Origin: Phycisphaerae bacterium
Lineage (GTDB): Bacteria > Planctomycetota > Phycisphaerae > SM23-33
Direction: 5' to 3'
DNA length: 64,000 nt
Assembly (NCBI GenBank): GCA_011050235.1
Contig: DRGC01000051.1
Location: forward strand, 82,333-146,332
Below the pieces are notes generated by a model. That model saw only the letters and a list, made by a program, of their open reading frames with translations, had not been told where the DNA came from and made no database searches. This document shows positions 5,167 to 50,709 of the stretch, one piece after another. The position numbers and the translations under genes were made by a program. Each line of letters opens with the position of its first letter. Positions within the stretch are counted from its first letter, which is position 1.

Positions 5167-6477
5167 CTACCAGTAAATGCCTTCGTATCCGTCCATGTGA
5201 CGGTCCACGCCGGCGATGTTGGCCAGGTCCATCACCTTGATGCCCTTGGCCAGCCACGCCTGGACCTGGGCGGCATCAACCGTCGCGTGGTTGATCAGGA
5301 TCATATCGCAATCGCCCAGGTCGGATAGATTGCCCACAAGGAACTCTTCCAGGTGCCGCAGCGCCCGCTGGACCTGCTCCTTGTTGGCGCCGATGAGCTT
5401 GTCCGTCTGCACGCACGGATCGTAAATCTTCAGGCCGATCCCCTCACCGACCATCGCCTTGGCGACCTTGATGAACGGGCTTTCGCGCATGTCGTCGGTG
5501 TTGGGCTTAAAGGCCACTCCCACCATGCCGACCGTCGTGGGCTGGTGAGCCAACACGCGCCGGACAAAGTTGTCGATCTGCACGATGTTACTTTCGAGAA
5601 TGCCCTGAAGCATGGGGACGTTGATCGCATGGAGCGAGGCGAATCGCAGAATGGCCTTCAGGTCCTTCGGCAGGCACGATCCGCCGTAAGCAAATCCCGG
5701 CCGGAGATACTTCTCGGAGATATTCAGTTTCCTGTCGGCACAGAAGACTTCGGCGACCCTTCGGCTGTCGATGCCGACGCTCTTGGCCACGGAGCCTACT
5801 TCGTTGGCGAATGTCAGCTTGAGGCCATGGAAGAGATTGTCGCAGTATTTGACCATCTCCGCCTCGCCGAGTTCCAGTTGGAATCGCGGGCCGGGGTAGT
5901 TCTCGTAGACCTTCAGCAGCAACTCGCCGGCCCCGGGGCGGGCCTCGCCAATGACGATTTTTGGCGGATCGTCAAAGTCCGCCACCGCCGTCCCTTCCCG
6001 CAGAAACTCCGGATGGAAGACCACGTCGAAGTCCTTGCCGACCTTTCCGCCGGTGGCGGCTTCGAGGATCGGGATGGCCGTGCCGGCTGTGGTGCCCGGC
6101 AGCGACGTGCTTCGTAGCACGATCAGGGGGTGGTGTTTCGTCTCCGCCATCGCTCGGCCGATTTCACCGAGGGCGGCCTGGACGTAGGACAAGTTGATTC
6201 CGCCGTCAGGCTCGGAGGGCGTCCCGACACAAATCCAGATCATGTCCGCATCGCGGACCCCTTTGACGGGGTCGGTCGAGGCGGTCAGGCGGCCTGCTTG
6301 GTGACCGGCGGCGAGCAGTTCAGGGATGCCGGGTTCCTGAATGGGCGACCGCCCTTCAGCCAGATCGGCAACCTTGGAGACGACCGGATCCACGCCCATG
6401 ACGTCATGCCCGTCGCGCACCAGGCAGGCGCCGCTGACGACGCCAACGTAACCCATACCGAAAATACTGATCTTCAT
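5167..6477 (-). CDS. algD: GDP-mannose 6-dehydrogenase-like nucleotide-sugar dehydrogenase
   Basis: The 436-residue protein oxidises the C6 hydroxyl of a nucleotide sugar to a carboxylate using NAD+. It begins MKISIFGMGYVGVV (NAD-binding GxGxxG), has the ICVGTPSEPDGG motif, and carries the nucleophilic cysteine C268 in FAYGGSCLPKDL. That motif, with L rather than F after the Cys, and the exact position 268 match AlgD, the GDP-mannose dehydrogenase of alginate synthesis, better than UDP-glucose dehydrogenases. The neighbouring heparinase/alginate-lyase-like gene supports a mannuronate-like uronic acid. GGAG lies four to ten bases before ATG 6477. UDP-sugar specificity cannot be excluded from sequence alone. 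Confidence 0.85.
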   Translation of the reverse strand: MKISIFGMGYVGVVSGACLVRDGHDVMGVDPVVSKVADLAEGRSPIQEPGIPELLAAGHQAGRLTASTDPVKGVRDADMIWICVGTPSEPDGGINLSYVQAALGEIGRAMAETKHHPLIVLRSTSLPGTTAGTAIPILEAATGGKVGKDFDVVFHPEFLREGTAVADFDDPPKIVIGEARPGAGELLLKVYENYPGPRFQLELGEAEMVKYCDNLFHGLKLTFANEVGSVAKSVGIDSRRVAEVFCADRKLNISEKYLRPGFAYGGSCLPKDLKAILRFASLHAINVPMLQGILESNIVQIDNFVRRVLAHQPTTVGMVGVAFKPNTDDMRESPFIKVAKAMVGEGIGLKIYDPCVQTDKLIGANKEQVQRALRHLEEFLVGNLSDLGDCDMILINHATVDAAQVQAWLAKGIKVMDLANIAGVDRHMDGYEGIYW

Positions 6478-49148: not shown

Positions 49149-49344
49149 ACGGCCGTCCTGAAGGCAGCGACGCTGACGACATTGTCGCCCGGCCGGATGG
49201 GTGCTGGCCGGCGCATAAGTACCTGATTAACCAACTGACACCGCCTCCAAACGCCCCCCTGTAACGCTACCCCAGCAAAAAACTTGTGATATTTCCTAAA
49301 GAAAATTCTGGCTTTCTGGCCGATACCTCTTGTAATAATACTCC
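49149..49344. other. Intergenic region after wecB with possible sRNA promoter
   Basis: No gene is visible. TAATAA at 49333-49338 lies where a -10 box would start a transcript near 49345, but the -35 region (around 49310) is poor. The region is AT-richer than its surroundings. Confidence 0.35.
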
Positions 49345-49446
49345 GAGTCGCACTTGCTTGTTTGCACAGGTCTCCCTCCACCTGTGCAGGGAATGCGACT
49401 TATATGCGACGTCAGGTCTCCCTCCGCCTGACGTCGTTTTTTTTTT
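49345..49446 (+). ncRNA. Putative small RNA: two hairpins with identical C-rich loops
   Basis: Two perfect hairpins follow each other. The first has stem TGCACAGG/CCTGTGCA (49363-49370 with 49381-49388) and loop TCTCCCTCCA. The second has stem CGACGTCAGG/CCTGACGTCG (49407-49416 with 49427-49436) and loop TCTCCCTCCG. Both present UCUCCCUCC in a 10-nt loop; only the stems differ, with compensating changes on both sides. The second hairpin ends in ten T residues. The C-rich loops could bind Shine-Dalgarno sequences, as in known CCUCC-loop regulatory RNAs. The 5' end is a guess; it could also be the leader of the nqr operon. Confidence 0.55.
49407..49446 (+). terminator. Rho-independent terminator
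   Basis: A perfect 10-bp GC-rich stem (CGACGTCAGG with CCTGACGTCG), a 10-nt loop and an uninterrupted run of ten T at 49437-49446 make this the strongest terminator in the window. It would end the putative small RNA and insulate the nqr operon. Confidence 0.9.
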
Positions 49447-49560
49447 CGCCCAGTCAGCAGTTGATTTCCGGCCGCGGTGGGGCATATTGACTGCAGGTGA
49501 AACTGGACTGAGCCGATTGGTTTGGCCTACACTATGCCGACCGGCCGGAATTCATCACCT

Positions 49561-50709
49561 ATGAGCTCAACGCCGAGCAACAAATCCGCTGCCGTCAGGG
49601 GCAGGCCCAAGAAGCGATTCATCAAGCAAGCCATCATGATGCGCATGCTCTATGCGCTGGCCCCGCTGGCGGTGGCGGCGGTTTACTTTTTCGGCTGGCG
49701 CGCCGGGGCGGTGCTGGCGGCGGTGTTCGCAGCCGGCATGGGAACCGAATGGATCACCTCCCGCCAGCGTCACGGGCCCGTCAGCACGGCCGGGCTGGTG
49801 ACCTGCGCCCTCTACGGCCTGTCGTTGCCGCCGACGACGCCCATGTGGATCGCCGCCGTCGGGGCGGTGGTGGCCGTCCTGTTCGGTAAGGAAGTCTTTG
49901 GCGGCTTTGGCAAGAACCCCTTCAACCCCGCCATCGTCGGACGCGCGTTCGTTTACATCTGCTTCCCGGTTGAACTGACGCGCCAATTCGTGCCGGCCTT
50001 CGGAGGGTTCCCGGGCGGCTTTGGATGCTGGTCGTTCGAATCGCTTCGCCAGCTCCCGGCGCACCTGGCCGACTCCGGCCGGGCCCTCGCCGATGCCGTC
50101 AGCATGGCCACCCCCATGGACATCTACCGCAAGGCGGGCTACGCCGTCGACTGGCGACAACTGGCGCTGGGCAACATCTCCGGCACGTTCAACGACGCCG
50201 GGGTCGACCGCATCATCTCAGCCGGCAGTATGGGCGAGGGATGCGCAGCGCTGATCGTATTGGCCGGCGCCTATCTGCTGTGGACCCGAACCGCCAACTG
50301 GCGGCTGATGTTGGGCGGACTGGCGGGCGTGGTTGTCTCGAGCGTCCTGTTTCGAAATATCCTGGGCTTTGCCGCCGGCGTGCAGGACGGCGCATTCGTT
50401 TACGGCATCCCGCCGCTGCACCTGACGCTGCTGTCGGGCACGACGCTCTACGTGGTCGTCTACATGATCACCGAGCCCGTCAGCGCCCCCAACAAGAAGC
50501 CGGCCCAACTGGCATATGCGTTCCTGATCGGCTTCCTGATCGTGCTGCTGCGATGGCGGGGAATCTTCGTCGCCGCCGCCACGTTCGCCATCCTGCTGGG
50601 GAACCTCATCGCCCCGCACCTGGACATGGCGGCTACCGAGTGGGCGGCCCGAAAAAAAACCCGCGCCGCGGCGCCCGCCGCCGAGACGGCCGGGGAGGAC
50701 GCCCCATGA
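49561..50709 (+). CDS. nqrB: Na+-translocating NADH:quinone reductase subunit B
   Basis: The 382-residue membrane subunit has about ten hydrophobic segments. The covalent-FMN threonine motif is AVSMATPM (the usual form is SGATP; here M replaces G) and NPFNPAIVGRAF, GSMGEGCAALIVLAGAYLLW and ITEPVSAPNKK are other NqrB/RnfD signatures. NqrB carries electrons and Na+ across the membrane with riboflavin and FMN. ATG 49561 lacks a clear ribosome site; an upstream in-frame TTG 49522 is an alternative. It opens the operon, though nqrA normally comes first. Confidence 0.88.
   Translation: MSSTPSNKSAAVRGRPKKRFIKQAIMMRMLYALAPLAVAAVYFFGWRAGAVLAAVFAAGMGTEWITSRQRHGPVSTAGLVTCALYGLSLPPTTPMWIAAVGAVVAVLFGKEVFGGFGKNPFNPAIVGRAFVYICFPVELTRQFVPAFGGFPGGFGCWSFESLRQLPAHLADSGRALADAVSMATPMDIYRKAGYAVDWRQLALGNISGTFNDAGVDRIISAGSMGEGCAALIVLAGAYLLWTRTANWRLMLGGLAGVVVSSVLFRNILGFAAGVQDGAFVYGIPPLHLTLLSGTTLYVVVYMITEPVSAPNKKPAQLAYAFLIGFLIVLLRWRGIFVAAATFAILLGNLIAPHLDMAATEWAARKKTRAAAPAAETAGEDAP

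Follow-up and report, generated by a model that had tools for sequence, protein, structure and literature searches.

A family of small RNAs with twin conserved C-rich loops in an order of uncultured Planctomycetota

Two hairpins that stand in tandem between protein-coding genes, and that carry the same C-rich loop on different stems, raise the question of whether they belong to a regulatory RNA and, if so, what their loops recognize. Such a pair occurs at positions 49345-49446 of the window, by which we mean the whole 64,000-nucleotide stretch of Phycisphaerae DNA that was analysed. An earlier note on this DNA had described twin hairpins with an identical loop and ten T residues at this place, and both sequence and fold bear this description out. 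Domain matches of the neighbouring genes also confirm its placement of the element, which adjoins the UDP-GlcNAc 2-epimerase gene wecB (PF02350) upstream and an NQR/Rnf operon (PF03116, PF04205, PF02508) downstream, both on the same strand. The loop that the note gave as 10 nt is indeed shared by the two hairpins, but only 8 nt of these are loop, the other two forming the pair, U-A or U-G, that closes it, and while both stem-loops are present, an outer stem around the first had been overlooked. The features are as follows.

49331-49338, + strand: possible -10 region TGTAATAA, with TAATAA at 49333-49338, from sequence
49345-49352, + strand: 5' strand of the outer stem, GAGUCGCA, from the fold, the homologous helix having 6 of 6 pairs compensated
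49361-49390, + strand: hairpin 1, with the loop CUCCCUCC at 49372-49379, from sequence, fold and covariation
49394-49401, + strand: 3' strand of the outer stem, UGCGACUU, from fold and covariation
49406-49437, + strand: hairpin 2, with the loop CUCCCUCC at 49418-49425, an intrinsic terminator hairpin, from fold and covariation
49437-49446, + strand: ten-T terminator tract, from sequence

The stem of hairpin 1 pairs 49361-49371 with 49380-49390 and its loop is closed by U-A, while that of hairpin 2 pairs 49406-49417 with 49426-49437 and its loop is closed by U-G. The outer stem (49345-49352 with 49394-49401) encloses hairpin 1 and not hairpin 2, and its 5' strand is likely to lie near the start of the transcript. 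The predicted fold of this copy has an energy of -49.1 kcal/mol compared with -30.2 kcal/mol in shuffled sequences (z = -5.6), and none of 200 shuffles was as stable.

This structure is maintained by selection. In a MAFFT alignment of 31 twin copies from different genomes, compensatory changes were found in 19 of 30 pairs, compared with 4-10 when the pairing partners were slid, and among 67 matches that were aligned, giving 64 distinct rows, compensation extended to 27 of the 30 pairs; by helix, these were 6 of 6 pairs in the outer stem, 7 of the 8 modelled in hairpin 1 and 12 of 14 in hairpin 2. The 64-row alignment leans towards the covariance model, and the MAFFT alignment of the 31 copies agrees with it; 95.9% of its cells are paired, versus 31-45% in all of the slid controls, and its covariation is 0.434, versus 0.04-0.12. 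Because the RNA base pairs covary, an open reading frame of 92 amino acids that spans the region (49286-49564) was judged to be mechanical. Paired positions of the alignment contain 229 G-U cells and 17 A-C cells, and the RNA therefore lies on the + strand. This bears on the idea that the opposite strand is transcribed and that its twin GGA-loop hairpins sequester CsrA in the manner of CsrB. The reverse complement does carry GGAGGGAG loops, but the T-run and the promoter-like boxes are also on the + strand and the loops of the RNA strand read CUCC rather than GGA, so that with the G-U and A-C counts a CsrB-like sponge was rejected as exceedingly improbable.

The earlier note had also argued that the loop is the selected element and that the stems are free to vary. 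Over 64 copies the loops of hairpins 1 and 2 are 96% and 97% identical, versus 65% and 76% for the stems of the hairpins, which covary, and 86% for the outer stem. Since the loops stay nearly identical over divergent stems, also in copies outside the nrdJ locus described below (loops 94-95% identical, stems 63-71%), it is the loop that selection keeps. We consider it almost certain that this family of small RNAs is genuine and under selection.

In a blastn-type search the RNA turned up in 31 of 40 relatives, in some of them with weak matches (E up to 1), and the genome of the window had three copies. A covariance model (R1) found it in 36 of the 38 genomes that were sampled from the same order, which we take to be SM23-33 in GTDB, at 1-5 copies each; the conservation among relatives that the note had wanted examined is thus present. 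Among other genomes of the class only 1 of 359 gave a match, a weak one (E 0.003), and a scan of 343 genomes of the phylum returned the genome of the window and one weak match. Scanning 84,980 GTDB species genomes for the twin motif as a pattern yielded 32 loci, all in Planctomycetota and mostly labelled Phycisphaerae (e.g. SM23_33), and the same kind of scan of IMG/VR viral contigs gave no twin-motif match. The family is thus confined to one order of uncultured Planctomycetota and occurs almost nowhere else. No Rfam family reached its gathering score and nothing relevant appeared at E<=1, nor was the RNA described in the open-access literature that was searched, in agreement with the note, which knew of no description for this lineage. 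Judged by these comparisons, the window RNA is a single member of a small RNA family that is strongly conserved and had not been described before. Three loci (L033, L035, L121) form a subfamily whose outer stem differs (GGCATTC/GAATGCC) and whose loops are unchanged, and three others (L027, L031, L108) are degenerate relatives with a single recognizable CUCCCUCC-type hairpin each, L108 being that of the window's own genome, at C49:24164.

The covariance model has five matches in the genome of the window, on contigs C97 (117 bits), C91 (94 bits), C51 (the window copy, 84 bits), C26 (56 bits) and C49 (27 bits). Neighbours of the copies in the family include nrdJ and leuD, wecB and nqr, DUF502, LemA and others. 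In 29 loci the upstream gene on the same strand is the same one, the class II ribonucleotide reductase nrdJ (PF02867 plus TSCPD), whose end lies about 130-710 bp from the RNA, and leuD is downstream of the RNA in 13 loci. The ancestral copy is the one just downstream of nrdJ. As the nrdJ-linked copy of this genome is C97, the window copy, whose location is not common to other sampled loci, is a paralogue.

An RNA that follows a gene on the same strand in so many loci could be nothing more than a terminator or 3' stabilizer of that gene (nrdJ, wecB or others), having no function in trans, and hairpin 2 with its T-run is by sequence an intrinsic terminator, in the window just after wecB. Termination does not call for one and the same 8-nt loop on two hairpins whose stems diverge, however, and the distance to nrdJ varies several-fold. 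In addition, one copy of the window's own genome (C26) lies between two opposite-strand genes, for alkaline phosphatase and LemA, and L118 and L119 are likewise flanked on both sides by opposite-strand genes, so that these three can be neither leaders nor 3' untranslated regions. We therefore regard the terminator explanation as improbable. Promoters point the same way. The TAATAA box that the note had offered as a -10 element is present, but it is a weak match and has no recognizable -35 element; upstream of another copy of this genome (C91, L022) there is a sigma-70 promoter, TTGACT-17-TAGAAT, and L026 has the boxes TTGACA and TAGAAT. TATAAT-like boxes occur at -20 to -5 in 22 of 58 copies, versus 11 in the complement control. 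On account of the opposite-strand flanks at several copies and the clear sigma-70 promoters at some, the element is predicted to be a free-standing RNA with its own terminator, an independent transcription unit, and the discrete structured small RNA of the earlier note finds support in structure, terminator and flanking genes at the level of sequence. In the window copy (49297-49303), as in L008, L015, L019, L030 and L034, a CTAAAG(N)TT-like word precedes the promoter region by about 25-40 bp, and it is possibly the site of a regulator.

If the loop is what is kept, the question becomes what it binds. The 3' tail of the 16S rRNA is canonical (GGATCACCTCCTTTCT), from which it follows that GGAG-type sites are in use, and start regions contain AGGAG, GGAGA and AAGGA words. 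The loop complement is matched at >=5 nt in the start regions of 47 of 224 genes, compared with 15 and 13 in control regions; 12 of 200 loop scrambles of equal composition reach 47 or more, however, and this count is thus permissive rather than diagnostic. The full complement GGAGGGAG was not enriched before ATG in the window's own genome (4 versus 3 in the control). Across the family, and after removal of sites inside the RNA genes themselves, a 9-nt complement occurs at about 69 sites versus 23 for a reversed-pattern control, an enrichment of about 3-fold that would be expected of any Shine-Dalgarno-like word, and no gene family recurred among these sites. No Hfq was detected in 40 sampled Phycisphaerae genomes, while several control bacteria gave matches, and the RNA thus differs from Hfq-dependent small RNAs in having hosts with no detectable Hfq (0 of 40). 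We favour, with some reserve, the reading that the loops pair in trans with Shine-Dalgarno sites and do so independently of Hfq, in which case the RNA would probably act by masking the ribosome-binding sites of messages and so silencing them. This function, which the note had suggested, has indirect support, from the 5-nt matches in start regions and from the nrdJ site described below.

The mechanism that we propose is that the window RNA is a paralogue in a family of trans-acting small RNAs of about 100 nt, which would be transcribed from its own promoter. Each pyrimidine loop (UCUCCCUCC) would pair with a purine-rich Shine-Dalgarno sequence of the GGGAGA, GGAG or GGAGG type and so block ribosome binding, the two loops serving as redundant binding heads, while the stems and the outer helix would display and stabilize the loops in cells lacking Hfq. 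By a weaker inference, the ancestral copy may feed back on its neighbour nrdJ, whose Shine-Dalgarno sequence is matched to the loop, and the window copy may be a duplicate under different transcriptional control that acts on the same type of site.

One observation counts against a view based on pairing only, namely that the GG/CC pairs beside the loops hardly vary over the 64 copies, a constancy that base-pairing alone would not demand. A conserved element that extends into the stem, present as two sites in near-identical context, would suit a decoy or scaffold in which twin GGU-CUCCCUCC-RCC hairpins bind and sequester an RNA-binding protein (translation-factor or cold-shock-like), as would the result that long seeds gave no conserved mRNA target. 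Such a decoy is nevertheless unlikely in our estimation, as the loop is an exact complement of a purine site, these genomes do use start sites of the GGAG type, nrdJ has a site that matches the loop, and the closing pairs may merely keep the loop open. Conservation of the loop only would also fit a sponge, in which the kissing partner of the loops is not an mRNA start site but a complementary RNA with a GGAGG loop, or some other small RNA, and the window's own genome has few close complements beyond the family itself. If up to 2 mismatches are allowed, however, complements there scarcely exceed the control (105 versus 83, the RNA family itself included), and the search of them identified no partner RNA; we give this explanation very little credence.

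The best candidate for a target of the predicted pairing with start sites is nrdJ itself. All pentamers at Shine-Dalgarno distance from the in-frame ATG were counted by an anchor-based method, and GGGAG, which is complementary to the loop, was the top pentamer before nrdJ, in 13 of 18 genomes (10 of 15 genera) versus 23 of 381 control genes (6%); AGGAG, the commonest control word, occurs there once. The strongest evidence for a target is thus GGGAG upstream of nrdJ, and not GGAGG. In about 10 of 18 genomes the duplex of nrdJ with the loop has a strength that ranks in the top ~10% when set against the start regions of the window's own genome, and the pairing of the nrdJ start regions with 16S rRNA is mostly average. 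Of two control genes, argH has AAGGAG-type words, with GGGAG in 2 of 23, and rpsB has GGAGG in 21 of 28, as GGAGGTG, with GGGAG in 6 of 28. Since rpsB shows that one word can persist by descent, the nrdJ result is only moderate evidence, amounting to about one draw of a word that roughly a tenth of genes use, and because the genomes share ancestry, Fisher p-values on these word counts were not taken as significance. In the window's own genome nrdJ has GGAGACC instead of GGGAG, ranking 83 of 224 with the 10-nt loop and 21 of 224 with 14 nt, and for GGAGACC to pair with GGUCUCC the loop-closing pairs would have to open. From these comparisons we put forward nrdJ as a tentative target, somewhat against the balance of probability. 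The fuller account, in which the RNA was born beside nrdJ, controls it through a GGGAG that is specialized to the loop and not to 16S rRNA, was later duplicated to dispersed sites such as that of the window copy and is convergent with alpha-r14, appears to us more doubtful still. For most of the rpsB genes themselves (L270-L297) the apparent start codon is TTG, and their GGAGGTG Shine-Dalgarno sequence is conserved.

The closest design known to us is that of alpha-r14/NfeR1 of the Rhizobiales (models SmelA075 and SmelA099), which, in the portions of the reports consulted, is multicopy, has three or four hairpins with an identical ultraconserved CCUCCUCCC, and silences mRNAs at ribosome sites through redundant anti-Shine-Dalgarno motifs (PMC10746234, PMC3927594). 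The present family resembles it in being multicopy and in having identical C-rich loops over diverged hairpin stems, and differs in having two hairpins with CUCCCUCC rather than three or four with CCUCCUCCC, and an outer stem, which alpha-r14/NfeR1 lacks as described in those portions (PMC10746234, PMC3927594). The hosts are Planctomycetota rather than Alphaproteobacteria. Membership of alpha-r14/NfeR1 was rejected, given that loop, hairpin number and phylum differ, as far as that family is described there, and that no Rfam covariance model matched. The CcsR1-4 RNAs of Rhodobacter sphaeroides are regulatory RNAs present in multiple copies with a C/U-rich loop motif. According to the sections of the papers at hand, they are processed by RNase E from the 3' untranslated region of ccaF1, a DUF1127 gene (PMC8625941, PMC10253847). 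Unlike CcsR and CIN1, the copies found here lie scattered, several of them having a promoter and a terminator of their own, and among the neighbours of the copies at the loci surveyed there was no DUF1127 gene 5' of the RNA.

Regulatory RNAs of Planctomycetota are nearly unknown, and a 2022 survey, in the part of it consulted, gives 8 small RNA families for the whole PVC group (PMC9029176). The present family is a well-supported addition, as its covariance model is objective, its place in the genome is conserved, and it offers a candidate target that can be tested. Should the loops indeed pair with ribosome sites, a design of one loop on many stems would have arisen separately in two distant phyla, and the anti-Shine-Dalgarno design would operate here where Hfq is undetectable.

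Other repeated sequences were seen near or beside the family. Close to several copies of the RNA, in the 3' flanks of L007, L011 and L026, there are dispersed palindromes, e.g. GTGGCACAGGCTTTTAGCCTGTGT and GGAACAGGTTTGTAACCTGTTCC, which look like REP-type repeats. In one genome (G009, contig C140) single GGTCTCCCTCCRCC motifs occur at 6004, 6199 and 6394, a spacing of exactly 195 bp, and are perhaps a tandem repeat array that contains the same loop word.
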